Of a stretch of DNA of 48,664 bases, positions 576 through 29,609 are shown piece after piece (within the stretch, counting starts at the first letter, position 1; the number at the start of each line of letters is the position of its first letter). Source of the stretch: an uncultured Aquincola sp. (lineage in GTDB: Bacteria > Pseudomonadota > Gammaproteobacteria > Burkholderiales > Burkholderiaceae); NCBI GenBank assembly GCA_937883885.1, contig CAKZXL010000212.1, positions 1 through 48,664 on the forward strand, written 5' to 3'. The translations under genes and the position numbers were made by a program. The notes under the pieces are model-generated. The model searched no databases. It saw only the letters and a program-made list of their open reading frames with translations, and had not been told where the DNA came from.

Positions 576-2147
<1,572 letters not shown>

Positions 2148-2172
2148 TGTGGGGAGGTGATCGGTTTTGCAC
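2148..2172 (+). repeat. Left terminal inverted repeat with innermost-to-end transposase box L1
   Basis: These 25 bases match the reverse complement of 43698-43722 at 20 positions. Both begin TGTGG and finish with the identical octamer TTTTGCAC (2165-2172), with the octamer 17 bases from the terminus on each side. TG...CA termini and repeated boxes are what MuA-type transposases use. Confidence 0.85.
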
Positions 2173-2247
2173 AGACGGTCCAAAATTTGGACGACGGAAA
2201 AGTCATTTGGATCAACGACTTACCCTCGTCCTGGGGACCCCCACCGC

Positions 2248-2255
2248 TTTTGCAC
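2248..2255 (+). promoter_or_regulatory. Transposase-binding box L2 (TTTTGCAC)
   Basis: This is the same octamer as in the terminal repeat and in the same orientation, 83 bases further in. Widely spaced left sites and closely packed right sites are the arrangement of Mu attL and attR. Function is inferred from that resemblance. Confidence 0.65.
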
Positions 2256-2423
2256 GAAATCGGTCGTAGAGGCCATAAAACGCACCAGGAGGCGCGTTAA
2301 ATCGGTCGGAGTGGGTCTGGCACGGACCGGTTCGGCGAGGCCCGCTAAAGCCCGTTTTCTCTCTTAGCAGCAGTCGCTTGGGGAGGCCCTGGGCCAAATC
2401 GCCCTGCCGTTCGTCCAGCGGGT

Positions 2424-2473
2424 CGAAGTCGGACGTTTCGAAGTCGGACGTTCCAAGACGTCCGACTTCGAAA
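2424..2473. repeat. Tandem 15-bp direct repeat plus inverted copy (GAAGTCGGACGT)
   Basis: TCGAAGTCGGACGTT occurs twice in perfect tandem (2424-2438, 2439-2453). The second copy forms a perfect 15-bp inverted repeat with 2459-2473 (arm TTCGAAGTCGGACGT, 6-base spacer). Further copies of GTCGGACGT are at 2541-2549 and, inverted, at 43644-43652 beside the right-end transposase boxes. It could be a transposase/repressor operator cluster or a terminator for the leftward early operon, but no T-run follows on either strand. Confidence 0.6.
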
Positions 2474-2601
2474 TTCCTTGCTGAATCATGCGCTTAGCGC
2501 CGCCCGAGTCTTCTAAGGCGTGGGAGGCAAGTGGCTGGAAGTCGGACGTAGCACGAGAGGGATCTCCCTTTTGTGCGAAAACAGGACCGCCGGACACGCG
2601 G

Positions 2602-2615
2602 CCTGTGGATAACTC
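2602..2615. promoter_or_regulatory. CCTGTGGATAACTC element containing a consensus DnaA-box sequence
   Basis: TGTGGATAA (reverse TTATCCACA, the consensus DnaA box) lies just past the Mor gene. A near-identical 14-mer, CCTGTGGACAACTC, is at 43597-43610 just past the last late gene. Mu replication is not known to need DnaA, so the role is open. Confidence 0.4.
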
Positions 2616-2627
2616 GCCAGCACTCGT

Positions 2628-3032
2628 TCAGTCGAACAGGTCGCCCGTGGTGTCCACCGGCCCTGCGCCGGCAGCCAGGATCTCGCAGATACGTCGCTCG
2701 GCCAAGCGGTACTTCTCGACCAGCTGGCGCAGCGACAGCGTCGCGTGATCGGCCCGGATGCGGGCGTCGCGGATGGCGCGCAGCGCCCGGCCGGCCTTGG
2801 GGATGCGCAGGCGTTCGAGGCCGTATTCCTTGGCAAGTGCGCGGGCAGCCTCGTACCCGACCAGCTGCGACAGCGCACCGTCGGGCGCCGGCTGCTCGGC
2901 GATGTAAATCCAGGCGCCCCCGTGCGCATCGACGATCCGCATGGTCGCCTCCAGCCCGATCAGCGCCACAAAGCGGCGCAGCAGCGGCTCCAGCAGCTCG
3001 ACGTCGACGGCGGGGGCACCGGCGTTGCTCAT
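2628..3032 (-). CDS. mor: Mor-type transcription activator (134 aa)
   Basis: Mor/C-family proteins bind DNA as dimers upstream of phage middle or late promoters and recruit RNA polymerase. The protein has the usual layout: an N-terminal helical dimerisation part (ELLEPLLRRFVALIGLEATMRIVDAHGG), a central stretch, and a C-terminal helix-turn-helix (ATLSLRQLVEKYRLAERRICEILA). It directly follows GemA, as in Mu-like phages, with ATG 3032 overlapping the GemA stop (ATGA). No second C-like activator is seen, so this single protein probably switches on the rightward late region. It is the last gene of the early operon. Confidence 0.85.
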   Translation of the reverse strand: MSNAGAPAVDVELLEPLLRRFVALIGLEATMRIVDAHGGAWIYIAEQPAPDGALSQLVGYEAARALAKEYGLERLRIPKAGRALRAIRDARIRADHATLSLRQLVEKYRLAERRICEILAAGAGPVDTTGDLFD

Positions 3033-3493
3033 GGAGTCACCGACTCCCGGCGCTTGGCCTTCTCGCGGTCGCGCCACGCCTTCAGCGCCTCAACCACGCG
3101 GTTGCCCTCGACCGACGTCAGGAATCGGGGCGCTGCCTTCTGGGTCGTCTTGAACACAAAGGCGTTGAGCCCGTGATCGGTGGCGTCCCGCAGGGCACCC
3201 AGGGCCGCCAGCTCGGCCCAGACGCGGCGCATCTTCTCCGCGTGCCAGCCATCGGCGGGCTTGATCTGGCGGCCGGGGTTCAGCGTCTGCTGCAAATGCC
3301 GCACCACGCGCTTTAAAGCAGCGTCGTCCATGTCGGTGGTGCTGGTCGCGCCGCCCACGGCCGACAGCATCGAGCGGTAGTCGCTCTGCGGGTTCTTGTC
3401 GGCCGTGTCCATGCCTAGCTTGGCGGCCGATGCGTGGATGGCGGCGATGTATCGACGCCGCTCAGTGGTCGAGGTCGACACGAGCTTCACCAT
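3029..3493 (-). CDS. gemA: GemA / Mu gp16-like regulator (DUF1018)
   Basis: The 154-aa product has the DUF1018 pattern: an N-terminal RRRYIAAIHASAAKLGMD, a middle GGATSTTDMDDAALKRVVRHLQQ, and a C-terminal WAELAALGALRDATDHGLNAFVFKTTQ. In Mu, GemA (gp16) is an early protein reported to affect host gene expression and DNA supercoiling. It starts 7 bases inside the preceding gene and overlaps mor by 4, so it is translated within the same leftward early operon. Confidence 0.85.
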   Translation of the reverse strand: MVKLVSTSTTERRRYIAAIHASAAKLGMDTADKNPQSDYRSMLSAVGGATSTTDMDDAALKRVVRHLQQTLNPGRQIKPADGWHAEKMRRVWAELAALGALRDATDHGLNAFVFKTTQKAAPRFLTSVEGNRVVEALKAWRDREKAKRRESVTP

Positions 3494-3882
3494 GGCGCGG
3501 TCTCCTCGTCGGCCGTGATCAGCACCGCGTCGTCGCCGAGCATGGTGATCAGGCCACGCGCAATCAGCCAGGTCACCGCGTCGAAGATCTCGCTGTAGCG
3601 CTCGTGGTCCATGGGCAAGCCGTAGGTCGCGCCGACCTCGTCACCCTTGATGCATTCCGACCGGATCAGCTCCAGCATCGCCTCATCGGCGATCGCCAAG
3701 CCGCGGGCGATGCCCTCGTCGCTCAGCGGCGCGTGCAGGAAGAGGTCGTGGAGCTCACCGCTGGCGCCGCTGGCCACCAGCTGCGCGCGGTGCTCCTCCA
3801 GGTAGACGCTCGGCTTGCCCTGGTGCGGCTGGAACAGCCATGCGGTAGCGCGCGGCTTGAGAGCGGTGCGGCCGCCTCTCAT
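3487..3882 (-). CDS. Early phage protein of unknown function (131 aa)
   Basis: I do not recognise the family. The protein is mostly helical by composition (LHDLFLHAPLSDEGIARGLAIADEAMLELI; YSEIFDAVTWLIARGLITML) with an acidic C-terminus ending ITADEETAPW. There is no signal peptide or membrane segment. It overlaps both neighbours by a few bases and sits directly before gemA, so it is co-expressed in the early operon. Confidence 0.75.
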   Translation of the reverse strand: MRGGRTALKPRATAWLFQPHQGKPSVYLEEHRAQLVASGASGELHDLFLHAPLSDEGIARGLAIADEAMLELIRSECIKGDEVGATYGLPMDHERYSEIFDAVTWLIARGLITMLGDDAVLITADEETAPW

Positions 3883-4166
3883 CGCAGGACTCCAAAGCCA
3901 GGCTTGTGCTCAAGCTGCAGCTGCTGCGGCGTGTCCGCATCGCCCTTCCTTGCGCGCACCTGGTCAGGCTTGACCGAGTGGTACTCGACCTGGACCGGCT
4001 CCTCGATGAGGAACACAGGTGTGCGGCCGTCGAAGTGCTGACGGACCCGCACGGCGTCTTCGAGCAGCTCGACGAGCTTGCGGCCCTTGTCGGCCGGCAG
4101 CAGCAGCGAGTGGTAGTCAATGGAAACGCAGCACAGGCGCTGCGGCGGCTTCTTGGTGGTGGCCAT
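3879..4166 (-). CDS. Early phage protein of unknown function (95 aa)
   Basis: This short, charged protein is not recognised. It begins with a basic stretch (MATTKKPPQRLCCVSIDYHSL), has a helix-like segment (GRKLVELLEDAVRVRQHF) and a strand-rich middle (PVFLIEEPVQVEYHSV). It is cytoplasmic by composition. Start and stop overlap the neighbouring genes by 1-4 bases, typical of this operon, which supports it being real. Confidence 0.7.
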   Translation of the reverse strand: MATTKKPPQRLCCVSIDYHSLLLPADKGRKLVELLEDAVRVRQHFDGRTPVFLIEEPVQVEYHSVKPDQVRARKGDADTPQQLQLEHKPGFGVLR

Positions 4167-4621
4167 CAGGCAAAGAGCTCCAGGTTGTTGCGCGCGGCCA
4201 GGCGCGTCATGTAGGCCGTCTGGCGGTGGTGTTCGGCGTCATAGGCCAGGTGATGGCGCTGGCACCACGCGCGAAGGTTCGCCAGGTCGCAGTGCTCGGG
4301 AACATGGTCCAGGTGAGCGACCGTCAGCACGATCACCGTCATCGGCGCGTTGGCCACTGCGAACTCACGCGCCTCTCGGTAAGACAGCGGCAAGCCCGTG
4401 GGCCAGGTCAGGCCGGTGCCTGCGGCATCGCATGGGCTGCTGCCACCGAGCGGATGCCACACGTGGTGTCCACCGATCGACTGGCGCCACGCGCCGACCG
4501 CGTGGTTGCGGATACCGCAGCCAGGCCACTCGCAGCGATGCTGAGCATGCTGGAGCACGGCCGCGCGAATCTCTTGCCAGTTGGCCGGATAGCGGTGGCG
4601 GTTTTCAGGCCTGATCGGCAT
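4166..4621 (-). CDS. HNH endonuclease-like protein (151 aa)
   Basis: An HNH core is visible near the C-terminus: TVAHLDHVPEHCDLANLRAWCQRHHLAYD, with His in LDHV, Asn in LANL and a final HH. A CEWPGCG motif upstream probably holds structural zinc. HNH proteins cut DNA using one metal ion. Many tailed phages carry an HNH gene beside the terminase for packaging; this one is instead in the early operon, as in several Mu-like phages. ATG 4621 overlaps the preceding stop (TGATG); a longer upstream start would run through the 53-aa gene. Confidence 0.85.
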   Translation of the reverse strand: MPIRPENRHRYPANWQEIRAAVLQHAQHRCEWPGCGIRNHAVGAWRQSIGGHHVWHPLGGSSPCDAAGTGLTWPTGLPLSYREAREFAVANAPMTVIVLTVAHLDHVPEHCDLANLRAWCQRHHLAYDAEHHRQTAYMTRLAARNNLELFA

Positions 4622-4782
4622 CACGCCTCCTGCACCGCCGGCTGCGTCGGCAACTCCTCGACTTGCCAGCTGCACCCGCCCTTGAAGGCAACGCACACGC
4701 GGAAGTCAATGAGGCCGATCCAGCCTGCGATGATGGCCAGGAGCAATGCACAGCCAAGACATCTGGCAAAGCTGCTCAGCAT
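4621..4782 (-). CDS. Small single-span membrane protein (53 aa)
   Basis: The product starts MLSSFARCLGCALLLAIIAGW and has one hydrophobic segment (about residues 10-25), then a short exposed tail with Cys residues and VEELPTQPAV. It could be a signal-anchored inner-membrane peptide. It overlaps the preceding gene by 7 bases and the HNH gene by one. Too short for a family call; small early membrane proteins in phages are often host-takeover or exclusion factors, which is only a guess here. Confidence 0.6.
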   Translation of the reverse strand: MLSSFARCLGCALLLAIIAGWIGLIDFRVCVAFKGGCSWQVEELPTQPAVQEA

Positions 4783-5363
4783 TGCGGCCTCGCTGCGTTG
4801 TGATTGCCCTTTGCTTCCTGCTCTCCCTCCACCAAGGCAATCGCTTTCTGTGCCTTCACGAGCATCTGCCCGGCGTTGACCTTTGCCAAGTGAGCACCAC
4901 CCGCCGAGAAGCTGAACTCCGTGGAGGACGGGTCGATTTCCAGCTCCTTCATCAGCGCCGTCACCAGGAAGAGAAGCAACTGCGTGGAGTCGTACAGCTC
5001 TTTGGCACCGGCGAACAGTCGTGCGTCCGCATCGTTCAACACCGCCGCGAATGGCCTGCCCCCTTCCTCCACGATGGTGAGGAGCGACTGGCCCTTCGCG
5101 TCCGCAGGGCACAGCCGTGTGACGGTGTCCCCGACCTCAAACAGGCGCAGCGGACCTTCGGTGATACGGCCCTCGGCGGCTGCGGCGCGTGGTCGCAGCG
5201 CAGGCTGTTCGACCGCTTCATCCGGTGCTTCGACGAACACCGCCTTCACGTTGGGCAGACCCTGCATGTCCGCAGGGCAGCGCTCGCCAATGCAAACCGA
5301 TGCGGTCAGCGGCGAGTGGACGTAGGCCCAACCCCAGGGCCGACGGGTAGTGTCTTGGCTCAT
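4776..5363 (-). CDS. Early phage protein of unknown function (195 aa)
   Basis: Two parts can be seen. The N-terminal half has Cys pairs (ASVCIGERCPAD) and strand-rich sequence. The C-terminal half (AAVLNDADARLFAGAKELYDSTQLLLFLVTAL ... VNAGQMLVKAQKAIALVEG) has the pattern of a common small phage domain in which an 'ADARLxAxAxELxxxxxxLL' helix is followed by a final AxxAIA helix. No catalytic motif is evident. ATG 5363 overlaps the previous stop (ATGA). Confidence 0.75.
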   Translation of the reverse strand: MSQDTTRRPWGWAYVHSPLTASVCIGERCPADMQGLPNVKAVFVEAPDEAVEQPALRPRAAAAEGRITEGPLRLFEVGDTVTRLCPADAKGQSLLTIVEEGGRPFAAVLNDADARLFAGAKELYDSTQLLLFLVTALMKELEIDPSSTEFSFSAGGAHLAKVNAGQMLVKAQKAIALVEGEQEAKGNHNAARPQC

Positions 5364-8634: not shown

Positions 8635-9260
8635 GAACGCTCCTCGGCCGCCGCGCGCTGCAGGGCGATCTGGCGCCAGGCCGGCGGATGGGTGGAGCCC
8701 TTCCAGGCATCGACCAGCACGTAGCGCTTGGCGCCGGTGTTGCTGCCCGGGACCTGCACGCGGCGCGCTGATTCGGTGAGGGCGCCGGCTGCGGCCCAGC
8801 GGCGCAGGTGCCGCTGCACGTTGGCCTGGGCGACCTTGAAGTTCCCGGTGCCCGCGTCACACAGGGTCTGCGCGGCCGACTCGCTGTCGACGATGGTGCG
8901 CAGGCGCACCAGGGCCCACAGCCGCATCACCAGCGAGTCCGGCTTGAGCGTGTTGGCCTTGCGCGTGCCTTTACAGCCGCTCTTCAGCACGGCGCCCCGG
9001 CCCGCTTCGGTGATGGCCACGGCGCCATCGGCCGTCACCGTGTAGATGTGAATGGCCCGGGCCTGGTCTTGCGACACGCGCACGGCATGGGTCAGGAAGG
9101 CAAGGTGGCACAGCCGGCTGGTGGCCTTCAGCCGCTGGGGCTTGGTGAGGCGATCACCCAGCCAGGCGACCAGGTCGTCAGCAGTGAACTGCGCCCCAGC
9201 GTGGTTCAGCTGCCGCGACGCCAGCAGCTGCAGGACGGTGGCAGATACCCACACGGTCAC
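8631..9260 (-). CDS. Early phage protein of unknown function, HTH-like segments (209 aa, GTG start)
   Basis: The GTG at 9260 overlaps the stop of the B gene (GTGA); the reading frame continues upstream without a fitting ATG and in a sequence that is clearly a shadow of B. The product has several helical repeats (FTADDLVAWLGDRLTKPQRLKATSRLCHLAFL; NFKVAQANVQRHLRRWAAAGALTES), each like a small HTH, and a basic middle. It directly follows the transposition genes, so a role in transposition or replication accessory functions is possible. Family unknown. Confidence 0.7.
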   Translation of the reverse strand: MTVWVSATVLQLLASRQLNHAGAQFTADDLVAWLGDRLTKPQRLKATSRLCHLAFLTHAVRVSQDQARAIHIYTVTADGAVAITEAGRGAVLKSGCKGTRKANTLKPDSLVMRLWALVRLRTIVDSESAAQTLCDAGTGNFKVAQANVQRHLRRWAAAGALTESARRVQVPGSNTGAKRYVLVDAWKGSTHPPAWRQIALQRAAAEERS

Positions 9261-10006
9261 AGCGCCGCTCCCCGGCGCACGGCGCCTGACTTGAACTCGA
9301 CACAAAGGGGACGGCCCTTGATGTGCTCGGACCCGACCTCGGCCAGGCCGTTGGCCTCGGCCAGCTGCTCGATGTTGCTGATGGCGTTGAGCGCCAGGCG
9401 CATCCGGCCGTTGCTCTGGGCGTGGATCGCCTCGACCACCTCGGGCTTGAGCTTGACCTCGCTGAGCTTCTCGCAGGCGGCCTTGACGTCGGCCAGACTG
9501 AGCGGCTGGAACTCGACGATCCGAGCGACGCGGCTGGCGATGTGGCCATGACGGGCCAGGCGGTCCCCGAAGGCCTCCATGCCCACCAGGTAGCACGCCA
9601 CGCCGGTGACGTCGGTGATGTCGCGGATGCACTCCAGCATGGCCGGCGACGACTTGCTGCCCGTGCCGCGCACCAAGAAATCCGCCTCGTCGAACACCAG
9701 GGGCGACATGTCCACCGCCAGGCGGCCGATGACGCGGGCCTGCACCTCGCTGTTGCGGCCGCGGGTGTCCAGGCCCATGCGCTCGGCGATCTCGTCCACC
9801 AAAGCGCGCTTGGTCCAGGTCTCCTTGCAGCGCACGAAGATGGCCCGGTTGTCGACGGCCCAGCGCTCGACGATCTCGGACTTGCCGACACCGAAGGGGC
9901 CTTTAATGATGACCAGGCCAGCCTCCTGGGCACCGCGCTTTTCGACGGCGCGCTGCGCCTCGGTGAGGCGGCGGAAGTTCTCGGTCAGGACAAAACCTTT
10001 TCTCAT
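9257..10006 (-). CDS. Transposition target-activating AAA ATPase, MuB-like (249 aa)
   Basis: The family binds target DNA with ATP and delivers it to the transposase, and helps target immunity. Walker A is GPFGVGKSE (about residues 36-44) and Walker B PLVFDEADFLV (about 102-112), followed by a sensor-type region and the lid domain (RIVEFQPLSLADVKAAC). The start MRKGFVLTENFRRLTEAQ is typical of the family and has AAGAAG upstream. A GTG at 10054 overlapping the A stop would add 16 unusual His-rich residues; I prefer ATG 10006. Confidence 0.9.
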   Translation of the reverse strand: MRKGFVLTENFRRLTEAQRAVEKRGAQEAGLVIIKGPFGVGKSEIVERWAVDNRAIFVRCKETWTKRALVDEIAERMGLDTRGRNSEVQARVIGRLAVDMSPLVFDEADFLVRGTGSKSSPAMLECIRDITDVTGVACYLVGMEAFGDRLARHGHIASRVARIVEFQPLSLADVKAACEKLSEVKLKPEVVEAIHAQSNGRMRLALNAISNIEQLAEANGLAEVGSEHIKGRPLCVEFKSGAVRRGAAL

Positions 10007-10050
10007 GGCGGTGTGCTTCTTGGTGTGGTGGTGCAAGCCGGATGGGGCGG

Positions 10051-12243
10051 TCACCCGGCGGTCTTAAAACCCTGCGCGCCTTCGACCCACGACAGGCCGC
10101 GGCCCGCGTAGTACTCGGCGAGCGCTTCATATTCCGGGCCGGCCACGTAGGTGGCCAGCCAGCTGGCGTCGGCATCGATCCACTGGTCGCGGTGGGCCAG
10201 CAGCCATTCGTAGCGCTCGCTGGCGCTTTCAAAGAAGGGGCGGACCGGGCCAGCAGGGGCGGCGACTTGCGCTGCCGGCGCGGGCTCCACCCGCTCGACC
10301 AGGGGCAGCGACGCGGCGGGCGCCATGTCGGCCTGGGCCAGGTAGGCGGCCCCGCCTTCCGGCACGGTGGGTCCGAGCTCGCGCAAGGCGGTGTCCATGC
10401 GCTGCTGTGCGCGCTTGACCATGCCGCGCACGCGCTTCTCGCGGGCGGCCTCGACGGCGGACTTCGGGAAGAAGTCCGACTTGTTGGCGTCGAGCTTGGC
10501 CTCGCAGACGAACTGGCCCGAGACGGTCCAGACGAACACCCGGGATGGGTCGTGCACGTCGTAGCGCACGCTGACCCGCTCGCCGTCGACCTGCATCAGC
10601 TCGTCGGACGCATACACCTGGTTGAGGAACTGGACCTCACCGCGCTGGGCCGTGCGCAGCGCGCTCGGCATAAACAGCGCCCGGACTTCCATGACGTCGG
10701 GCTTGATGACCAGGTCGGGCACCAGCATGGCCTCCCAGGCCTCGTTCGGCGTCATGTGCAGGCCGGCGTGAGGGCCGCTGCTGTGCTTGGGCAGGCTGCG
10801 GTGGCGGTGCTCGCTGTTGTACTCGTGCACCGCCTGCTCAATCGCGGCGATGAACTGCTGCCAGCTGGGCACGCGACGGCTGAGCGTCACGACGTCGCCT
10901 GTCTTGCGGGCGCGGTCGACGGCACGCTGTTCGCGCTGCAGCTCCAGCGTCACTTGCCGGTGGCTGGCGCGGTCGACGTCCTTGCCCTGGTAGGTGTCGA
11001 ACTGCCGGGCGCACCGGATCATGTGTGTGCGCCAGCTGCGCTCCAGGATGCCGCGCGCCTGGGGATGGCCCGGCTTGCCGGTGCGGTGTTCGGTGCCGAG
11101 GCGGGCATACAGCCCATCGACCGGGCAGTCGAGCTGCATGCCCGTCTCGCCGGCACCGTTGTCGCTGTAGATCATGGCGTGCACGCCGTGCGTGCTGACG
11201 CTGTGCGTGATCGCGGCGCCCACGGCCATCGTGGACTCGCTGAGCGAGACCGACCACCCGGTGATTTTGCGGGTCGCCGCGTCCTTGACGATGGAGACTT
11301 CCGGGGCGAAGGGCTGCCCGTGGTCCGGGTGCCTGACCTTCGCCTTGAACGAGTGACCGTCGATGACACCGATGTCCAGCGGTGAGAACAGGCTGGTGTC
11401 GCGGCGCTTGAAGGGCAGCCGCGCCGCACGCTCAGCGCCGGTGTGACGGGCCTTGATCATCTGCACCTTGTCGACCTTCGGCATGGCCCGGCGTGCCTGG
11501 TCGTACAGGCGGCGCCAGTCGTCGAAGGGTCGGCCCAGCGCCCGCGTCACGGCCTGCGCGACCTCGGTCAAGTTGCGGGCCGAGCCCTTGGCGCTGGCGT
11601 AGGCCTTGATGACTGCTGCGACGTCATCACCGACGGCGGTGAGCGCCGTGGGCGCCACAGGCTTGGGCAACAGGCCCCACCAGCCTTGCGACGTGTAGGC
11701 CGCATGCCAGAGGAACAGCGTGCGAGGCTTGATGCGGACGCGGCCGTCCACGATGCGGGGCCGCAGGTTGGCCGCTTTAGCTGCCGCCACCAGTGCTTCG
11801 GCGGCGTCGTCTTCGACCAGGTGGTCCGACAGCGCAGCAGCTGCACGGGTAATGCTGCCCATGGCGTCCACGAGCTCCATCAGCTGACGGACCACCACGG
11901 TGCGCGCATCGGCGCATGCCACATCCGCGCGGCTGGGTGGGCGGCGATCGGCGAGCTGCGTGCTCACGGCGGACTGCGAGGGCGCAGCTACCGTGAACGA
12001 CTCGGTCGGCGATGCGGCTTCGAGCTGCGGCGGCAGCGCAGCCTCTTTGAGCTTGCGCGCCAGCAAGGCCTTGCGCGTCTCAAGAGGAAGTGCCGCTGTG
12101 TCGAACTCCCTGCCGCCGCCAACGCGTCCGGCGCGGGGCCTGGACGGCACGCCGATGCGGTCGAGCCATTCGCGAGTGCGCCGTTCAGAACTCGGCAGGC
12201 CTTGAAGGCCTGCAAGTTCGGCGGCAGTGAGCCACGAATTCAT
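10051..12243 (-). CDS. DDE transposase A, MuA-like (730 aa)
   Basis: This is the recombinase that cuts phage ends and joins them to target DNA. An N-terminal Mu-type DNA-binding domain (residues ~1-65, AAELAGLQGLPSSERRTREWLDRIGVPSR) is followed by further end-binding helices (~105-270). The RNase H-like catalytic core has D295 (GVIDGHSF), D361 (YSDNGAG) and E401 (RGILERSW). A beta-barrel domain and a C-terminal tail (~600-730) follow. MuA is 663 aa; this one is somewhat longer. Its presumed boxes are TTTTGCAC at the prophage ends. It overlaps the upstream 75-aa gene by 4 bases. Confidence 0.95.
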   Translation of the reverse strand: MNSWLTAAELAGLQGLPSSERRTREWLDRIGVPSRPRAGRVGGGREFDTAALPLETRKALLARKLKEAALPPQLEAASPTESFTVAAPSQSAVSTQLADRRPPSRADVACADARTVVVRQLMELVDAMGSITRAAAALSDHLVEDDAAEALVAAAKAANLRPRIVDGRVRIKPRTLFLWHAAYTSQGWWGLLPKPVAPTALTAVGDDVAAVIKAYASAKGSARNLTEVAQAVTRALGRPFDDWRRLYDQARRAMPKVDKVQMIKARHTGAERAARLPFKRRDTSLFSPLDIGVIDGHSFKAKVRHPDHGQPFAPEVSIVKDAATRKITGWSVSLSESTMAVGAAITHSVSTHGVHAMIYSDNGAGETGMQLDCPVDGLYARLGTEHRTGKPGHPQARGILERSWRTHMIRCARQFDTYQGKDVDRASHRQVTLELQREQRAVDRARKTGDVVTLSRRVPSWQQFIAAIEQAVHEYNSEHRHRSLPKHSSGPHAGLHMTPNEAWEAMLVPDLVIKPDVMEVRALFMPSALRTAQRGEVQFLNQVYASDELMQVDGERVSVRYDVHDPSRVFVWTVSGQFVCEAKLDANKSDFFPKSAVEAAREKRVRGMVKRAQQRMDTALRELGPTVPEGGAAYLAQADMAPAASLPLVERVEPAPAAQVAAPAGPVRPFFESASERYEWLLAHRDQWIDADASWLATYVAGPEYEALAEYYAGRGLSWVEGAQGFKTAG

Positions 12244-12467
12244 TCGGAGCCTCGCGCCGCGGACGAGCTGTCTTGGACAGATTCCGCACCGGCCCCGAGC
12301 TTCGTCGCTTCAAACTCCGCGAGTACTTGAGTAAGCAGGCCTTCCATTCGATGAGCGCTGACTACGGCCTCATCTAACCGGCTGCTGATTGAGCCCATCA
12401 GCATGACCAGCGCCGCAATATCTGCAGCCGTTGCGGGCTGTTCCAGGGCGTCCCTAGTCTCAGACAT
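12240..12467 (-). CDS. Small early protein of unknown function (75 aa)
   Basis: An acidic, probably coiled-coil protein (ADIAALVMLMGSISSRLDEAVVSAHRMEGLLTQVLAEFEATK) with a Ser-rich tail. It starts 8 bases inside the gp16-like gene and overlaps the transposase start by 4, so the three genes form one translational unit. No family recognised. Confidence 0.65.
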   Translation of the reverse strand: MSETRDALEQPATAADIAALVMLMGSISSRLDEAVVSAHRMEGLLTQVLAEFEATKLGAGAESVQDSSSAARGSE

Positions 12468-12699
12468 GCGCCGCCCCGCTGCGAGTCAACACGTTGTGCA
12501 TCGGGGGCAGCTGAATGCCCATCGCATGCATGGCCTGACGGCACTTGCCCCGCCGCCCGACAGCGCGCCCGCGTACGACCATGTACACGACGTTCAGGTC
12601 TAGGTTTCGTTCCCGTGCCCATTCAGCGACCGTCTTGTTCTGCGCTTCCAGCTCCTTGAGGAACATCTCCAGCGTTTTGGGGGGGGTGATCTTTCTCAT
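12460..12699 (-). CDS. BcepMu gp16-family DNA-binding protein (79 aa), first early gene
   Basis: The sequence ELEAQNKTVAEWARERNLDLNVVYMVVRGRAVGRRGKCRQAMHAMGI is the short HTH layout of the BcepMu gp16 family (AxWARxxGLxxxxVYxVLxGRxxxxRGxxHxIAVxLG). Its position, first gene of the leftward operon and divergent from the repressor, is that of Ner/Cro-like early regulators, so it probably turns down the early or repressor promoter. ATG 12699 lies ~35 bases past the predicted transcription start. Confidence 0.8.
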   Translation of the reverse strand: MRKITPPKTLEMFLKELEAQNKTVAEWARERNLDLNVVYMVVRGRAVGRRGKCRQAMHAMGIQLPPMHNVLTRSGAAHV

Positions 12700-12784: not shown

Positions 12785-13234
12785 ATGTCGCCGGAAGAGC
12801 ACCAAGTCAGAATCCAACACGCCGATCGGCTGAAAGCAGAACGTTTGAGACTGGACCTCACACACGAGGAACTGGCATCCGCGACGGGGGTGTCGCGCGC
12901 CACTCAGTTCGCCTACGAAAACGGGTCTCGTGCGCCAGACGTCCTGTACCTAGCGAAGGCCCGTGACGCTGGCGTTGACGTCCTGTTCGTAATTTCTGGA
13001 CAGCGAGAGCGAGGTACGCCGGGCGTGACTTCTGAAGAGCGGGTGCTTATCGATCGCTACAACACGCTCGCGCCGCCACTAAGAAAGACAGTCGACGACG
13101 TCTTGTTGCTTGCAACCCACGCGTCTACAGGTGAATCCTCACCACGTGTTGCGCAAACGTTCCACGGCCCTGTAGGCGCAGTGGGGGACGCCGCTCGGGT
13201 TAAGCAGACCATCAAACACAAGGTTGGTCGATGA
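12785..13234 (+). CDS. XRE-family phage repressor (149 aa)
   Basis: An N-terminal helix-turn-helix (RLKAERLRLDLTHEELASATGVSRATQFAYENGSRAPDVLYL, residues ~14-55) is of the XRE/CI type, followed by a segment like that in other phage regulators (EERVLIDRYNTLAPPLRKTVDDVLLLA) and a tail FHGPVGAVGDAARVKQTIKH. It is divergent from the early operon and carries no protease (S24) domain. It is most likely the lysogeny repressor. A GGAAG precedes ATG by 4-5 bases. GC content is lower here than in the structural genes. Confidence 0.85.
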   Translation: MSPEEHQVRIQHADRLKAERLRLDLTHEELASATGVSRATQFAYENGSRAPDVLYLAKARDAGVDVLFVISGQRERGTPGVTSEERVLIDRYNTLAPPLRKTVDDVLLLATHASTGESSPRVAQTFHGPVGAVGDAARVKQTIKHKVGR

Positions 13235-22619: not shown

Positions 22620-24107
22620 ATGAGCAACGCCTACACCTTGGCCGACTTCGGCATCACCATGCTTGGCCAGGCGCTGCCGACCAAGACCGCGCCCGTGGCC
22701 ACCCGGGAAGCCGCAGGCGCCTTCGACGACGAAGACCGCGGCTGGCGCACCCTCACCGGCGTGGCTAGGCGCGACCTGTCCAGCGTCAGCCAGGCGCAGA
22801 TGCAAAAGCTGGCTGCCTACCTGTGGGAAACCAATCTGTTGGCCAACCGCCTGGTCGAGCTGCCGCTGGCATTCCTGGTGGCCGAGGGCGTCAAACTCAC
22901 CTGCGAGGACGAAGAGCACCAGGAATGGCTGCGCGCCTTTTGGAACGATCCCATCAACAAGATGGATTTGCGCCTACCCACCTTCGCGCGCGAGCTCGCG
23001 CTGTTTGGTGAGCAGTGCTGGCCGGTGTATGTCAACGACGTCAACGGGCATGTGCGCCTTGGTTATCTCGATCCGTCCTTGATTGAAAACGTCATCGTGG
23101 ACCCGGGGAACCCTTCTCAGGAAATCGGCGTTCGCACCGTCAAGGACGCCGCCGGGGTATTTCGGCAGTTTCGGGTGATCGTGCGTGGCGAGGACGATGA
23201 GTTGTTTGCGGCGCCGGCCAGGCAGCTGCGGGCCGGTTTCGACAGCGGTGAGGCGTTTTATTTTGCGGTCAACAAATTCGCTGCGGGTCGGCGCGGCCGC
23301 AGCGATCTGATTGCCCAGATGGATTGGCTCGACGGCTACGACGAGTTTCTGTTCGACCAGCTGGAGCGGGCCGGTGAGCTCGACGCATTCATCTGGGATG
23401 TCGAGCTGACCGGCGCGGACGAAGAAAAGGTCAAGGCGCGCGCCAAGGAAATCAAGCGACCTGGTCGAGGCAGCGTGCGCGTTCACAACGAACAGGAGAA
23501 GTGGACGGCCGAGGCGCCCAGCCTGAACGCGGTCGACCGCGCCGAGAGCGCCCGCATGTTCCGCAACCATGCGCTCGGCGGCGCCACGCTGCCCGAACAC
23601 TGGTACGGCGGCGGCGGTGACGTCAACCGCGCCTCGGCCGCCGAGATGGGCGACCCCTTCTTCAAGGTCGCAACCATGCGCCAGACCACCCTGCGCCACA
23701 TGCTGCAGGAGATGGGGCACTACGTGCTGTATCGGCGGGCGATCGCCGCTGGCCAGCGGCCGCAGTGGGGCAAGCCGGAGTGGACCGTTCGGGCCGAGTT
23801 CCCGGAGATGGTCACCCGGGACGTCACCAAATTGGCCAGCGCGCTGCAGAGCTGCGTCGTCGCCGTGGCGTCCGCCCTCGGTGAGCGGCTGATCACCCGG
23901 GCCACCGCCTTGCGGATCATCGCAACCGCTGCGAAGCGCCTGGAGGTCGACATCGACCCCGAGGCCGAGCTGGCGGCGGTGGAGGAGGAGGCACCGGACC
24001 CGGCAGCTGCTGCAGCGGCCGCAGCGGCCGTGGTGACCGTGCCAGCCGGCCTGGAAGACGACGACGCCAGCCAGGGCGCAGCCGATGGCCACGGGCAAGG
24101 CAAGTAA
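22620..24107 (+). CDS. Portal protein (495 aa)
   Basis: It follows the terminase as portals do and has the portal pattern: NRLVELPLAFLVAEGVKLT, FARELALFGEQCWPVYVN, YLDPSLIENVIVDPGNP, AFYFAVNKFAAGRRGRSDL, NHALGGATLPEHWYGGGGDVNRASAAEMGDPF, and an acidic Ala-rich tail. It forms the ring at the head vertex through which DNA passes. GAGG 5 bases upstream supports ATG 22620. An upstream in-frame ATG at 22530 (MAAVKTNPSALALAELD...) overlaps the terminase by 83 bases and could be the start instead. Confidence 0.88.
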   Translation: MSNAYTLADFGITMLGQALPTKTAPVATREAAGAFDDEDRGWRTLTGVARRDLSSVSQAQMQKLAAYLWETNLLANRLVELPLAFLVAEGVKLTCEDEEHQEWLRAFWNDPINKMDLRLPTFARELALFGEQCWPVYVNDVNGHVRLGYLDPSLIENVIVDPGNPSQEIGVRTVKDAAGVFRQFRVIVRGEDDELFAAPARQLRAGFDSGEAFYFAVNKFAAGRRGRSDLIAQMDWLDGYDEFLFDQLERAGELDAFIWDVELTGADEEKVKARAKEIKRPGRGSVRVHNEQEKWTAEAPSLNAVDRAESARMFRNHALGGATLPEHWYGGGGDVNRASAAEMGDPFFKVATMRQTTLRHMLQEMGHYVLYRRAIAAGQRPQWGKPEWTVRAEFPEMVTRDVTKLASALQSCVVAVASALGERLITRATALRIIATAAKRLEVDIDPEAELAAVEEEAPDPAAAAAAAAAVVTVPAGLEDDDASQGAADGHGQGK

Positions 24108-25095
24108 TGGGGCGCCGGGCACCGACCCCGCCAAGGCTGCCAAGGCCGCGCTGGCCCAGGTGCTTCGCCAACGCGTGGCGCTGTGGGCTAACCTGGATGC
24201 AGAGCTGGCGCGGCTGATCGACCAGGCGTTGCTCACGATCAACGGTCAGCTGGCGCGGGCGCCCTCCGACTACCAGCAGTGGGTGCTGCCGCGACTGTCC
24301 GACAGCATCCGGCGTGTCTCCGACGAACTGGCCGTGTCTGCCAGCACCAAGGCCTCGGACGGCTTGCGCCAAGCCTGGGCGCTGGGTGAAAGGGTGGTGC
24401 AAGCGCCGATCGCCGCGGCGCAGGCGGCAGAGACGCTGCTGGCGGTCGCCGGCGCCAGCCAGGCCACGCCCGCCGCGGCCGTGGCCACCGCAGTCTTCAG
24501 CTCGCCCGACCTGCGCCAGCTGCGCGCGCTGCAGGCGGTCAACACCCACCTGATCACGGGCGCGACCGCCGACCTGGTCAACAGCGTCAATCGCGAGCTC
24601 GGTCAGGTGGTGCTGGGCGCCCGCACGCCCTTCGAGGCGATGCAAGCGGTCCAGCAGCTGCTGCCCGACCGCACGAAGAACCAGGTGCGGGGCATCGTCA
24701 CCAGCAACCTCGGCACCGCCTTCAACACGGCGAGTTTCAAGGCCCTGCAGGCCCAGGCCGCCCGCGATTCGAAGATCCGCAAGCAGTGGCGCCGCTCGGG
24801 CAAGCTGCACAGCCGCTGGAACCACGACGCGATCGACGGCCAGGTCCAGGAAATCAACGACCCCTTCGAGCTGCCGGCGGGCAAGGGGCGTGGCAGCGTG
24901 CAGATGATGTACCCGGCTGATCCAGCCGCTCCAATCGGTGAGGTCATTCACTGCGGCTGCGTTGCGCTGCCGTGGAAGGCGACGTGGAAGATGCGGGTGC
25001 CGGCAGGCAGGCCGCTGACCCCGGAAGAAGTCGAGGCCCGCCGGGAGGACGCGGCCCGGCTGGAAGGCAAGCGGCTGCCTCCGCGCAGGCGCTGA
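24085..25095 (+). CDS. Head morphogenesis protein, MuF/SPP1 gp7-like (336 aa)
   Basis: The C-terminal part has the MuF pattern: SNLGTAFNTASFKALQAQA, QWRRSGKLHSRWNHDAIDGQVQEINDPFELPAG, and IGEVIHCGCVALP with the HCxC pair. The N-terminal half is long, helical and Ala-rich. MuF proteins are minor head components beside the portal. It overlaps the portal gene by 23 bases and is the last gene before the reversed insert. Confidence 0.88.
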   Translation: MATGKASNGAPGTDPAKAAKAALAQVLRQRVALWANLDAELARLIDQALLTINGQLARAPSDYQQWVLPRLSDSIRRVSDELAVSASTKASDGLRQAWALGERVVQAPIAAAQAAETLLAVAGASQATPAAAVATAVFSSPDLRQLRALQAVNTHLITGATADLVNSVNRELGQVVLGARTPFEAMQAVQQLLPDRTKNQVRGIVTSNLGTAFNTASFKALQAQAARDSKIRKQWRRSGKLHSRWNHDAIDGQVQEINDPFELPAGKGRGSVQMMYPADPAAPIGEVIHCGCVALPWKATWKMRVPAGRPLTPEEVEARREDAARLEGKRLPPRRR

Positions 25096-25103
25096 CCCGC
25101 CAG

Positions 25104-25118
25104 AGGCTCTAGGAGCCT
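25104..25118 (+). terminator. Hairpin after the MuF gene
   Basis: AGGCTC-TAG-GAGCCT is a 6-bp perfect stem 9 bases past the stop, with only TCGCGTTC after it. It marks the border between the head genes and the reversed insert. Confidence 0.4.
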
Positions 25119-25233
25119 TCGCGTTCGCTTTCGGCACCCCATGCACCATCCGAGGGTCGTCAGGCGATCCTGGCGCGATTTACAGTGGTTTTAAAGTGGG
25201 TCGGCCGGTCTACGCTCAGTCGCCAAGGCGAGC

Positions 25234-25791
25234 TCAGTCCGCGACTGGCGGTTCAGGCAGCGGCCGATCCGACTTTGGACGGCGCATGCCCACCGCCTTG
25301 ACGCCCTCTATCGTGAGGGCCCGGCTGTCCTCGTGGTCCAGGTAGGTCTTGACCTTGTCTGCCGGCACCAGCGTCAAGAGCACGGTCCACAACTGCCAGA
25401 TGGTGAGCGTAGCCAGCGTTCCATAAGAGAGCCCGCGCAAGACCGCGATGTCGACGGCGAACTCCTGCCGCTTGAGGATCGGCACGCTCACGCCTAAAAC
25501 CAAGATGACGCTCAGGATGGCGGTCGAGTGGACGACGGGCAAGAACAGCTGGTTGAGCCCGGTGGCAGAGCTGGCCGCGCCCGGCTGTTGAGGTTTGAAG
25601 GACAGCTTCAGGCGATCGGGGTAAATGATGGCCATCCAAGCGCCAATGACCGCAAAGATGATCGAGGCCGTGGTCCGCAGCGCCTCAAACATCGGCCACT
25701 GCTCTGCCATGGGCACGACGCGGCCGAACCAGCCCGCCGCCGCGATCAGTGCGATCGCGATCAGTGCGAAGAAGATCCGGAAAGCGTTCAA
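25234..25791 (-). CDS. Four-helix membrane protein of the reversed insert, RexB-like in layout (185 aa, TTG start)
   Basis: Four hydrophobic segments are visible: FRIFFALIAIALIAAAGWFG (~4-23), LRTTASIIFAVIGAWMAIIY (~40-60), VVHSTAILSVILVLGVSVPI (~87-106), and LSYGTLATLTIWQLWTVLLTLV (~122-143), with a charged C-terminal tail. GAGG is 8 bases before TTG 25791, and the start follows the upstream stop by 10 bases, so the two reversed genes are one operon. No family is recognised. A soluble partner with a four-helix membrane protein is the RexA/RexB arrangement; the sequence is not clearly RexB. Confidence 0.75.
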   Translation of the reverse strand: MNAFRIFFALIAIALIAAAGWFGRVVPMAEQWPMFEALRTTASIIFAVIGAWMAIIYPDRLKLSFKPQQPGAASSATGLNQLFLPVVHSTAILSVILVLGVSVPILKRQEFAVDIAVLRGLSYGTLATLTIWQLWTVLLTLVPADKVKTYLDHEDSRALTIEGVKAVGMRRPKSDRPLPEPPVAD

Positions 25792-25801
25792 GGGGATTGC
25801 C

Positions 25802-26833
25802 TCAGGGGATCGTGGCCAGGATCTGCCGGCGCAGGCGGTGCAGCTCGTGCAGCAGTGACTCACCGTTGACGTGCTCAGGATTCTCGCGCCGAACGTCCAG
25901 CTCGAACGTGTCCCGCGCAATCGACCTCGAAATCCAGTGGACCTTGTTGGCATCCCCGGTGAACACGAAGCCAAGGTCGTCCCACTCCGTTTGGTTCTGC
26001 TCGTCCTGCCACTGCGCAATGAGCTCTCGCACGTCCGTCTCCGTCAGCGAGACTTCCAGCTCGTATCCCAGCTTGACGTCCGTACGTCTGGCGATGGGCT
26101 CGCGCATGCCGCTGTACTCCAACAGTCGCTGCCACATTGCCCGTTGATCGCGACGCTCCAGCGAGAGCGTGGACTTTCGGATGATCTTGCGAATGCTGGT
26201 CGCCCGACGAATTAGCAGCTCATGTTCTCCTGCTTTGGTGAACAGCTCGCTACGGAAGCGACCACGTAGATTTAAAATGTCCGCCCCGGGCCGCTCGCAG
26301 TAACCCAAAATCGTAGGGTCCTGGGCATCTTCGTCGAAAACGACGTGTCGCCCGAAGTTTCTGAGGAACGACTGCAGATATGTCTGCAGCTGGTAATGGC
26401 CGCCTGAGAGATGCTGAAAACGGATGGACGCAAAGTACGGGGCGCCGTGGATGAACCAGAAGTATGTCGAGTAGCCCGGGATGCTGTTCGGCTGAATCGC
26501 GTTCATGAACACTTCTGGGTTGCCCACCTGAGATATGGCGCTGACCGAGGCGACCTTGCCATCGGTCTCCGGTGTGGCATTCCAGAGTGCTACTAGGCGG
26601 TCACCTTGAAGCTGGTGGGTACTGAGTAGATAGACACCCAGGTCGGGCCCATCCTCACCTGGCGTGAAGGTAAGGGTTTCGCCGAGATCCTTGTGTTGCG
26701 ACCAAACCGCCAAGTCTTCAAGCAGGTCAGCCAGACTGCCAAACATGTACTGATCACCACGGGGCCGGTAGTAGCCGCACTTCGCGATCCGATAGAACGT
26801 GATTTTTGCTTCTTCCAAAACCGCCTCACCCAT
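25802..26833 (-). CDS. Soluble protein of the reversed insert, RexA-like in layout (343 aa)
   Basis: Not recognised as a named family. The N-terminal half is mixed alpha-beta: ITFYRIAKCGYYRPRGDQYMFGSLADLLEDLAVW, RLVALWNATPETDGKVASVSAI, GYSTYFWFIHGAPYFASIRFQHLSGGHYQLQTYLQSFLRN. The C-terminal half is highly charged (TSIRKIIRKSTLSLERRDQRAMWQRLLEYSG ... LIAQWQDEQNQTEWDDLGFVF). No signal peptide or membrane segment. The order (short N-terminal strand, 'FGSLADLL' helix, value-and-display strands, 'FWF...' then a Q-rich helix) recalls lambda RexA, at the level of layout only. Composition is less GC-rich than the phage genes, and it is read against the late operon, so it is a moron probably expressed in the lysogen. 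Confidence 0.8.
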   Translation of the reverse strand: MGEAVLEEAKITFYRIAKCGYYRPRGDQYMFGSLADLLEDLAVWSQHKDLGETLTFTPGEDGPDLGVYLLSTHQLQGDRLVALWNATPETDGKVASVSAISQVGNPEVFMNAIQPNSIPGYSTYFWFIHGAPYFASIRFQHLSGGHYQLQTYLQSFLRNFGRHVVFDEDAQDPTILGYCERPGADILNLRGRFRSELFTKAGEHELLIRRATSIRKIIRKSTLSLERRDQRAMWQRLLEYSGMREPIARRTDVKLGYELEVSLTETDVRELIAQWQDEQNQTEWDDLGFVFTGDANKVHWISRSIARDTFELDVRRENPEHVNGESLLHELHRLRRQILATIP

Positions 26834-26998
26834 AAACAGTTGCTTGCCGATTGTTACGGTGGATCAGCGGGCCCGAGGGGCGGCTGGTGGTCAAGATTTA
26901 CCCTCGTGCACCAGCGTTCAGCCTCTAGACAGTCGCCGCATGCCGCTGTACAGCGTGCGCTTGCTGAGGCAGACTGATCGGGCGCAATCACCAGCGTT

Positions 26999-27019
26999 CT
27001 GCGCCCCCGCAGAGTTACC
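26999..27019 (+). promoter_or_regulatory. CTGCG-N4-CGCAGAGTTACC dyad, copy 2
   Basis: Same 21-base pattern as at 13983-14003, here with CCCC in the spacer and the stem extended by one T-A pair. It lies 48 bases before the first gene of the capsid block, just after the reversed insert, where a fresh late promoter would be needed. Confidence 0.5.
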
Positions 27020-27067
27020 GAAGAGCTTGTCGCTCGGCAAAGTCCGCTCCACCCACTGGAGCGCGAC

Positions 27068-27289
27068 ATGCCCGAGACCAAAGACCAAGCCACCCCCACC
27101 AAAGAGCTGACCGCGGCCGACGTGGTCAAGGTGGTCAAGCGCCGCACCCTCGTCGAAGACAAGGGCGTCAGCCGCGTGGTGACCAGCCCGCTGAAGGCGA
27201 GCGAAGTTTTGTCATTCAAGGACTACGGCACGCACATCGTCGTCGTGACGACCGACGGCCAGAAGTTCAGCAACGCCGACGAGGCCTGA
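27068..27289 (+). CDS. Small late protein of unknown function (73 aa)
   Basis: A polar protein with a central strand-rich part (KGVSRVVTSPLKASEVLSFKDYGTHIVVVTTDGQKFSNADEA). It resembles the small proteins that precede the capsid gene in several Mu-like phages. A ten-base gap precedes the capsid fusion gene. Function not known. Confidence 0.7.
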   Translation: MPETKDQATPTKELTAADVVKVVKRRTLVEDKGVSRVVTSPLKASEVLSFKDYGTHIVVVTTDGQKFSNADEA

Positions 27290-27299
27290 GCGCAGCGCC

Positions 27300-29609
27300 A
27301 TGAGCGTCAAGCGCATCCCCGCTGGCCAGGGCTTCACCCGCCTGTCCGAGGCCGTCACCACCGAATACGCCAGCCTGCTGGAGCTGGTGCGCGCCGCACT
27401 GCGCGACAAGCTGCGCGCCACGCCTGGCGTCTCGGACTACTACCTGGAGCTGTCGGGGATCTGGCCCGATCGCGTGGTGGCCAAGGTGCAGGGCCGCTTC
27501 ATGTCCTTTCCGTACACGCTGGACGCCGACAACAAAGTGGTGCTGGCCGACGGCAAGGAAGTGGTCCTCGACTACACCGCAGTGCGCGAAGCCACTGGCC
27601 TGGCAGACCCGACGGCCACCTTCCGCGAAGCGGCCGACGGGTCGATCGCGGTGACCATCATCCGGGCCGGCGCCAGCATCAACGGCAACTACTACACCGA
27701 CGCGTCTTTGCAGGGCGCGGTGCAAATGTTTGAAGGCGTCCGCGTCTTCAGCAAGAGCGACGCCGATCACACCAAGGGCGCCGGCAAGGACGTGCGCAAC
27801 CTCATTGGCGGCATCTACGGCGTGAGCTTCGCGGCCGGCAGCACGGCCGACACCGGCTCGCTGGTCGGCACCTTCCGGCCCATCGACCCGACCGATGCCG
27901 TCGTCACCAAGATGACCGAAGCCGTCAAGCGCGGGATGCAGGGCCTCATGGGCCTGTCCATCGACGCGGAGGCCTACACCAAGAAGCAGAAGGTCGGCGG
28001 CCGCCAGATGCGCGTGGCCAAGTCCTTCGCCAAGGTGCACAGCGTTGACCTGATCGTCGAACCGGGCGCGGGTGGCGGCCTGGATCGCCTCACCGAAGCC
28101 ACCACCCCCCCTTCCGACAACGGAGAAACCATGCTCAAGACGCGCATGTACGAGGCCATCAAGGCCAAGAACAAGGCCCGTGCGGCCGAGATCGACCTGG
28201 ACACCATCACCGACGAAGAGCTGCTGAAGGTGTACGAGGCCGTCTGCGGCACCGCCGGCAACGGCGCTGCGGCCGCGGGCGCCGACGGCACCATCAAGGG
28301 CCGCGTGAGCGAAGCCGATGCCGGCGACGACGCCCCCGTCACCCGCGCCCAGCTGGCGCTGCACAACGCCCGCTTCTATGCCTCGACGGCCATCGCGGTC
28401 AGCACGCTGCCGCAAGTGGCCAAGGACCGCCTGCAGGCCGACTTCAAGGTGCGCGAGCGCTTCACCGAGGCCGAAGTTGACAGCGCCATCAAGAGCGAGC
28501 GCGAATACCTGGCCCGTTTCACCGAAAGCGGCCGCCCCACCGGTGGCATGCCGCGCATCGAGGTGGGCGACCGCACGGTGGCGGTCAAGGACATGCTGGA
28601 CGCCTTCTTCGACCCCAAGCACAAGGACCACCGCAGCGTGCGGTCCTTCCGCGAGTGCTACGTCGAGATCACCGGCGATCGCGAGATCACCGGCCGCCCG
28701 GACCGCGTGCGCCTGACCGAGTCCATCGGCACCGACACCTTTGCCGACGCGCTGGGCAACTCCATCACCCGCCGCATGCAGGCCGAGTACCGCGATGCGG
28801 TGGCCTGGGACGCCTGGCGCCAGGTGGTGTCGGTGGCCAACGTTGCCGACTTCCGGGTGCAAGAGCGCACCCAGATTGGCGGCTACGGTGACCTGCCGAT
28901 CGTGGCCGAACGCGGCAACTACACCACGCTGTCGGACCCGAGCGACGACAAGGCGCTGTACCAGGTGGCCAAGCGCGGCGGCCTGGCGCAGGTCACGATG
29001 GAAGCCATCGCCAACGACGATGTGCAGGCCATCCGCCGCATCCCGATCGAGCTGGGCCGCGGTGCCAAGCGCACCCTCTACAGCTTCGTCTTCAACTTCT
29101 TCGCAGCCAACCCGGTCACTTACGACGGCCTGGCGCTGTACCACGCCACCCACGGCAACCTGCTCACCGGTGCGCTGAGCGCGGCGCAGATCTCGGCCCA
29201 CCGCCTGGCCATGAAAAAGCAGCCGGGCCGCGACACCGGCAAGCGCATGGGCATCGGCCCGCGCTTCCTGCTGGTGCCCGATGACCTCGAAGAGGCCAGC
29301 GCGGACATCTTCCGGCGCAACACCAACAACGACAAGACGTTTGTCCAGAGCCTGACGCTGGACATCATCCCGGTGTCGACGTGGACCGACACCAACGACT
29401 GGGTGTCGCTGGCCGATCCGCTGGATCTGCCGGTGATCGAAATCGGCTTCTGGAACGGCGAGGAGGAGCCCACGCTGCTGACGCAAAACGGTGCCACCGA
29501 AGGCTCGGTGTTCACCAACGACGTCATCTCCTACAAGGTCCGCCACGTCTACGGCGGCAATGTCCTGGTCGACGGCTTCAAGGGCACGACGAAGGCGGTG
29601 GTGCCCTAA
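27300..29609 (+). CDS. Prohead protease-scaffold-major capsid fusion (769 aa)
   Basis: The N-terminal ~270 residues have the prohead-protease pattern with catalytic His157 (DADHTKGAGKD) and Ser220 (GLMGLSIDAEA). A linker (~265-277) leads to a helical scaffold-like part (MLKTRMYEAIKAKNKARAAEIDLDTITDEELLKVYEA, from 278) and the capsid (FTEAEVDSAIKSEREYLARF; DTFADALGNSITRRMQAEYRDAV; RFLLVPDDLEEASADIF; LPVIEIGFWNGEEEPTLL). Protease-capsid fusions are known in phages. The protease presumably frees itself and trims the scaffold. An internal start at 28131 may yield the scaffold-capsid alone. Confidence 0.88.
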   Translation: MSVKRIPAGQGFTRLSEAVTTEYASLLELVRAALRDKLRATPGVSDYYLELSGIWPDRVVAKVQGRFMSFPYTLDADNKVVLADGKEVVLDYTAVREATGLADPTATFREAADGSIAVTIIRAGASINGNYYTDASLQGAVQMFEGVRVFSKSDADHTKGAGKDVRNLIGGIYGVSFAAGSTADTGSLVGTFRPIDPTDAVVTKMTEAVKRGMQGLMGLSIDAEAYTKKQKVGGRQMRVAKSFAKVHSVDLIVEPGAGGGLDRLTEATTPPSDNGETMLKTRMYEAIKAKNKARAAEIDLDTITDEELLKVYEAVCGTAGNGAAAAGADGTIKGRVSEADAGDDAPVTRAQLALHNARFYASTAIAVSTLPQVAKDRLQADFKVRERFTEAEVDSAIKSEREYLARFTESGRPTGGMPRIEVGDRTVAVKDMLDAFFDPKHKDHRSVRSFRECYVEITGDREITGRPDRVRLTESIGTDTFADALGNSITRRMQAEYRDAVAWDAWRQVVSVANVADFRVQERTQIGGYGDLPIVAERGNYTTLSDPSDDKALYQVAKRGGLAQVTMEAIANDDVQAIRRIPIELGRGAKRTLYSFVFNFFAANPVTYDGLALYHATHGNLLTGALSAAQISAHRLAMKKQPGRDTGKRMGIGPRFLLVPDDLEEASADIFRRNTNNDKTFVQSLTLDIIPVSTWTDTNDWVSLADPLDLPVIEIGFWNGEEEPTLLTQNGATEGSVFTNDVISYKVRHVYGGNVLVDGFKGTTKAVVP
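28122..28133 (+). promoter_or_regulatory. Internal ribosome site and ATG within the protease-capsid gene
   Basis: GGAGA stands 5 bases before an in-frame ATG (28131), codon 278, exactly where the protease domain ends. Use of this start would give a 492-aa scaffold-capsid protein in excess over the fused protease. Confidence 0.55.

Follow-up and report, generated by a model that had tools for sequence, protein, structure and literature searches.

A reverse-oriented gene pair in the head operon of a Mu-like prophage as a probable RexAB-type exclusion module

Two adjacent genes, which we call A and B, run against the late genes of an apparently transposable, Mu-like prophage in a 48,664-nucleotide (nt) stretch of contig CAKZXL010000212.1 from an uncultured Aquincola sp. 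(this whole stretch is the window in what follows). We consider it probable that the prophage carries them as a cargo module for RexAB-type phage exclusion (abortive infection), in which A is a RexA-fold sensor and B a membrane effector. A preliminary description, made from the sequence alone, had offered lambda RexA/RexB as a parallel for the layout, and this parallel proved right and stronger than claimed: the predicted structure of A has the RexA fold, and relatives of the pair stand behind a repressor in the lambda arrangement. Overall, the observation was confirmed and the interpretation partly supported. No abortive-infection system was discovered earlier than RexAB, whose trigger is, to our knowledge, still unknown.

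Gene A (25802–26833, reverse strand) encodes 343 amino acids (aa) from an ATG start, and gene B (25234–25791, reverse strand) encodes 185 aa from a TTG start; the open reading frames (ORFs) and the sequence bear out the positions, the 10-base gap and the GAGG-preceded TTG first described. At the junction (25792–25804, reverse strand), the stop codon of A occupies 25802–25804, with a 10-nt spacer to the TTG of B, and in our reading of the sequence the GAGG overlaps this stop, 8 nt ahead of the TTG, a start consistent with the N-termini of relatives. PHROG matches on both flanks place the pair between a MuF gene and the capsid block, as had been noted. A hydropathy scan of B found the four hydrophobic segments originally counted (residues 4–22, 38–56, 83–101 and 126–144). 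The pair is also less rich in guanine and cytosine (GC) than the phage genes around it, as seen earlier: 58% in A and 63% in B versus 67% in the window, 70% in the MuF gene and 67% in the capsid gene. Only one close nucleotide relative was found, and it is identical.

Judged by its profile matches, the pair is a member of the PADLOC candidate family PDC-M18, with both genes side by side and 10 nt apart: A matches PDC-M18A over residues 7–341 of 343 (E 1.9e-115) and B matches PDC-M18B over residues 4–173 of 185 (E 4.4e-67). By the same matches, both are real genes. PADLOC's PDC candidates came from a 'guilt by embedding' discovery approach and are uncharacterised (PMC10855318). PHROGs places both proteins in families of unknown function (the match of B is weak, E 2.3e-4), and Pfam and NCBIfam scans gave no convincing match for either; a Josephin match (E 0.21) and an SCO4848 match (E 0.041) fell under the curated cut-offs and were dismissed.

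The pair had been put forward as a possibly undescribed exclusion system. That holds in part: it is already represented by a PADLOC candidate, and RexAB-type systems have been reported in lambda, Sbash, CarolAnn, Butters and Pseudomonas putida, with five RexAB-like systems described so far according to a January 2026 paper (PMC12894663), yet we saw no earlier link to RexAB. A full-text literature search, thin on most subscription journals and separate preprints, returned no paper for the name PDC-M18, and among the literature matches listed, with the same sources outside coverage, there was no earlier statement connecting PDC-M18 to RexA; the P. putida paper names neither PADLOC nor PDC (PMC12894663). 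As far as we have seen, then, what is new is the recognition of PDC-M18 as a RexAB-type family by fold, layout and context, together with the reversed placement in a head operon.

The link to RexA comes from predicted structure, modelling of both proteins being one of the checks that the preliminary description had proposed. The model of A (predicted local distance difference test score, pLDDT, 92.2; predicted template modelling score 0.84) was compared by Foldseek with 350,542 PDB chains, and its best match was lambda RexA (8TWQ, E 1.4e-4), the two chains of which were the only matches at E<=1e-3. On this model, A carries the RexA/RdgC two-domain fold. B was modelled as four long helices (pLDDT 90.6). 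The viral fold match that ranks second for B (E 0.46, not significant) is a protein equal in length to Sbash gp31, a RexB-like effector; the structural match of B to Sbash is suggestive only.

Several results weigh against a RexAB assignment. A has no match to Pfam PF15969 or to the PADLOC RexA model, and B has none to Pfam PF15968 or to the PADLOC RexB model. No similarity appeared when A and B were aligned by hhalign with lambda RexA/RexB, with an alignment of four RexA members or with Sbash gp30/gp31, and searching PDB sequences by phmmer and by profile gave no route to RexA or RexB. The window pair, moreover, is not downstream of a repressor: the candidate repressor gene (12785–13234, forward strand; Pfam HTH_3, E 4.5e-7), divergent from a Ner-like gene, is about 12 kb away. 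That no sequence method tried connects the pair to RexA/RexB agrees with the initial impression of a shared layout without clear sequence identity, and because of it we place the pair in PDC-M18 rather than in the RexA/RexB sequence families. The RexA models recognise lambda RexA yet miss Sbash gp30, and hence are narrow; the RexB models likewise miss Sbash gp31. The DUF4747 motif, described as common to RexA and Sbash gp30 (PMC6426596), gave no match in A, but it gave none in lambda RexA or Sbash gp30 either. Repressor linkage is also not universal in the RexAB class, the Sbash pair being displaced as well.

By analogy with the P. putida prophage system RexABpp and with Sbash gp30/gp31, we propose A as the DNA-binding sensor, or trigger, and B as the effector, and the pair most likely works, as well as being built, like RexAB. 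A, with its predicted RexA/RdgC fold, would form a dimer that clamps DNA and would stay idle in the lysogen; on infection by another phage, it could sense infection-specific DNA, a DNA–protein intermediate or a phage protein and then switch on B. B, a putative four-helix inner-membrane protein, would oligomerise and breach or perturb the membrane, and growth would stop before progeny form. For this pair, we infer exclusion itself and every step that would lead to it: DNA binding, the trigger, the activation of B, damage to the membrane and expression in the lysogen. In RexABpp, both genes are required, A binds DNA, and overproduction of A causes the four-transmembrane B to arrest growth and permeabilise the membrane in a subpopulation; A–B binding was not seen in the two-hybrid assay, depolarisation was not detected, and A supplied in trans did not rescue defence (PMC12894663). 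Defence has also been reported for Sbash gp30/gp31, with a model similar to that for RexABpp (PMC6426596).

To gather relatives, we used alignment-based scans, with one search pattern each for genome contigs and viral contigs, which returned 54 and 53 A loci, respectively; the two sets overlap in part, so these counts are not independent. In the viral scan, a single A protein as query found no relative, whereas the alignment found all 53. An adjacent B on the same strand accompanies A in 51 of the 53 genome loci with a callable A (L059, a fragment without one, stands outside this count), in 52 of the 53 viral loci and in all three annotated phages fetched from the six such records that carry A. 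Where no adjacent B was called, the locus lies near a contig end (L039, L124) or has a split A with B after the second piece (L061). The converse search, with B in 398 Pseudomonas genomes, gave nine positives, one of them the centre genome, and in every case A precedes B. Record titles, of which several name metagenome bins, place PDC-M18 in Proteobacteria, Cyanobacteria, Campylobacterales, Desulfo- groups and Spirochaetes and in their temperate phages. Across 84 non-redundant pairs, the distance matrices of A and B correlate at 0.80 (2,000 shuffles gave at most 0.26), which shows joint inheritance, not contact. Among 15 close pairs of relatives, the ratio of nonsynonymous to synonymous substitution rates (dN/dS) was 0.03–0.13 where computable (five pairs for A, eight for B), and these ratios are rough because dS exceeds 1 in all but one computable pair; they give rough signs of purifying selection on both genes among relatives.

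This regular pairing bears on which of the two proteins does the damage. In Butters, gp30/gp31 are described with the roles reversed, a toxic cytoplasmic antiviral component being held at the membrane by a partner that is dispensable for defence (PMC12894663), and the A–B layout would be compatible with such a scheme, in which B restrains A until infection, as well as with RexAB. We think it unlikely here: B is present as regularly as A, its few computable dN/dS values are equally low, and the membrane protein is described as the effector in the P. putida, Sbash and CarolAnn pairs (PMC12894663). Kiwa offers another division of labour. KwaA senses infection and KwaB binds DNA. On that pattern, B would sense infection at the membrane and release or position A as a DNA-binding effector, and the component types are alike, a membrane-associated helical protein with a dimeric two-domain partner (PMC11514479). 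This seems quite improbable, given that neither A nor B matched the PADLOC KwaA and KwaB models up to E 1 and that A has 546 fold matches, headed by RexA, with no Kiwa-named entry among the best 50.

The surroundings of the relatives add the lambda-like context to the RexAB-type reading. The pair lies downstream of a repressor and on its strand in Pseudomonas phage Ps59 (two genes between), Halomonas phage vB_HboP_4908 (one) and Vibrio phage 10N.222.45.E8_PE002 (none). For Ps59, a literature search on the phage and superinfection found no paper. In vB_HboP_4908 (L002, 5989–7569 and 9626–11478), the repressor ahead of the pair is of LexA type, and a cytosine methyltransferase gene and an Eco29kI-family restriction gene are nearby. 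The Vibrio phage (L003, 5339–10924) carries notes of P2/186-like replication and an integrase; there, the pair is directly behind a CI-type repressor, and its neighbours are annotated as Septu and as a type IV restriction enzyme, so that, by its annotations, this stretch is a compact prophage defence cluster. At least 14 of 53 viral contigs and at least five of 53 genome loci (one with a 54-aa fragment) have a repressor-like ORF on the strand of the pair, no more than 1.5 kb upstream of it; these are lower bounds because detection ran phmmer from seven seeds. At six loci (L022, L023, L028, L103, L108 and L119), a repressor-like match is downstream, or upstream on the other strand.

Other copies sit elsewhere. 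Some viral copies adjoin antitermination Q or tail genes, and in L122 the pair and one additional gene on either side of it separate the major tail protein gene from the tape measure gene; at the genome loci, upstream neighbours are diverse, as far as scanned. The genome survey covered 91 proteins (90 of 109 listed upstream neighbours plus the Ps59 repressor, with 100 downstream neighbours left out), and the viral survey covered 89 of 101 listed neighbours; in both, the tallies give the first 25 families and ORFs were chosen mechanically, and those removed by hand were mostly very short or very long. Given these varied contexts, the pair looks like a mobile cassette that is often, but not always, found in the lambda cI-rexA-rexB order. 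The same contexts speak to the idea that the module serves lysogeny and not defence, with A binding DNA to bias the phage's own lytic–lysogenic switch and B as an accessory. Lambda RexA without RexB can bias the lambda switch (PMC11077077), and some relatives do adjoin repressors. Even so, we regard this as about as improbable as a Kiwa-like scheme: the window pair is far from its repressor, a minority of loci gave a repressor nearby (though this count is a lower bound), and tail operons and bacterial contigs with diverse neighbours are among the places where copies occur.

In the window, the left flank of the slot is a MuF-like head morphogenesis gene (24085–25095, forward strand; phrog_2468, E 3.7e-20). 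On the right is a 73-aa late gene (27068–27289, forward strand) that is conserved next to the capsid gene, with no PHROG match and with relatives in six of the 15 related loci compared, followed by a 769-aa protease–major head protein fusion (27300–29609, forward strand; phrog_4523, E 1e-45; phrog_133, E 1.6e-44). The transposable, Mu-like appearance of the phage comes from early genes at 9257–12699 on the reverse strand, with matches to phrog_296 (DNA transposition protein), phrog_310 (transposase) and phrog_925 (helix-turn-helix, HTH); the names MuB, MuA and Ner for these genes are our own reading of the PHROG matches.

A survey of this slot in related prophages, which the preliminary description had suggested, covered the 15 relatives. 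In 12, the MuF and capsid genes are on one contig, and the gap between them (counting the 73-aa gene wherever present) is 320–687 bp in ten and longer in L087 (825 bp) and L079 (1,989 bp), versus 2,204 bp in the window. Among the ORFs in the L079 gap (2955–4943) is a staphylococcal-nuclease-like gene on the reverse strand (Pfam SNase, E 5.8e-8), so the MuF–capsid junction takes cargo at times and reverse orientation is not unique to the window. By eye, the product of the nuclease-like gene has an apparent signal peptide, and a small HTH gene lies in the same slot. The best annotated phage match to the head genes of the window, Microcystis phage Mae-JY22 (L004; 69% DNA identity over 18% of the query), has an empty slot, with 99 bp from MuF to the next gene. 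In L086, about 2.2 kb between the portal and MuF genes (1537–3788) contains a 323-aa ORF and a 421-aa ORF with repeats rich in Ala and Thr, and is perhaps a second cargo slot. Between 25050 and 27320 in the window, we found no inverted repeats and only short direct repeats, and we claim no insertion mechanism.

The preliminary description took the opposite orientation to mean expression from the lysogen; we put this more cautiously, as something that the pair may do. With the repressor candidate about 12 kb away and on the other strand, the pair needs a promoter of its own, which would most simply lie in the 234-nt region upstream of A (26834–27067, reverse strand), its presumed control region. 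This region holds the repeat CACCAGCGTTC twice, as the core of a 14-nt direct repeat (CACCAGCGTTCAGC at 26909–26922 and CACCAGCGTTCTGC at 26989–27002, 80 nt apart), and no further copy of the core occurs anywhere in the window; the repeat is a possible operator. A separate, exact 15-nt repeat, CGCATGCCGCTGTAC, is found at 26103–26117 in the coding sequence of A and at 26937–26951 in the upstream region. A simple sigma-70 consensus scan of 25000–27300 found no promoter, a result of little weight with 0.3 expected by chance, and one terminator-like site, inside B, is below the chance number. Decayed or neutral cargo with reading frames kept by chance, an idea that the lower GC content and the unrecognised promoter might favour, is hardly credible given that neither frame is broken or shortened relative to the family models and that the relatives, as distinct from the window's own copy, keep the pair together with low, if rough, dN/dS.

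Beyond the single pair, we lean slightly towards a broader view, in which PDC-M18 is a large second RexAB-type clade with the RdgC/RexA DNA-clamp fold that has escaped recognition because sequence methods do not reveal it. As a self-contained cassette with its own regulation, it would move into repressor, antiterminator, tail and head slots, so that its expression need not depend on CI. If this is true, lambda Rex is one twig, the best known, of a two-component immune family that is widespread. A divergent family with the RexA fold and layout would supply many natural variants for mapping the trigger, the interface and the channel, and an anonymous PADLOC candidate becomes a testable mechanism.

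Among known systems, lambda RexA/RexB shares with the window pair the A-then-B order, the RexA fold in the model of A and a four-segment membrane partner, and it shares repressor linkage with some PDC-M18 relatives; it differs in having no detectable sequence similarity, in its repressor linkage, which the window pair lacks, and in length (279/144 aa versus 343/185 aa). PDC-M18 itself is a bioinformatic candidate, from which the window copy stands apart in being reversed within a head operon. The exclusion genes of phage Fc02, small, overlapping and upstream of the repressor, we take to be a different system (PMC9936078). RexABpp (prophage P1, PP_5643/PP_5644; described in 2026), compared by description, has similar sizes and a four-transmembrane B, its A is structurally nearest to 8TWQ, and a CI-like repressor stands upstream of the pair; in contrast to hhalign with A of the window, HHpred found RexA for PP_5643 (PMC12894663). 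None of the loci searched for it carries the RexBpp fingerprint (W25, F35, L55, T103, S145, G153 and Y181, with six of the seven residues sufficing), and PP_5643/PP_5644 were not identified through Pseudomonas genomes, the residue fingerprint or a distant-subfamily protein search (41 matches). Sbash gp30/gp31 have no sequence similarity to the window pair, and CarolAnn gp44/gp43 are likened to it by description only. Both are two-gene prophage defences with a four-transmembrane effector, the arrangement that we propose for A and B, and the Sbash pair also lies away from its repressor, behind lysis and late genes.
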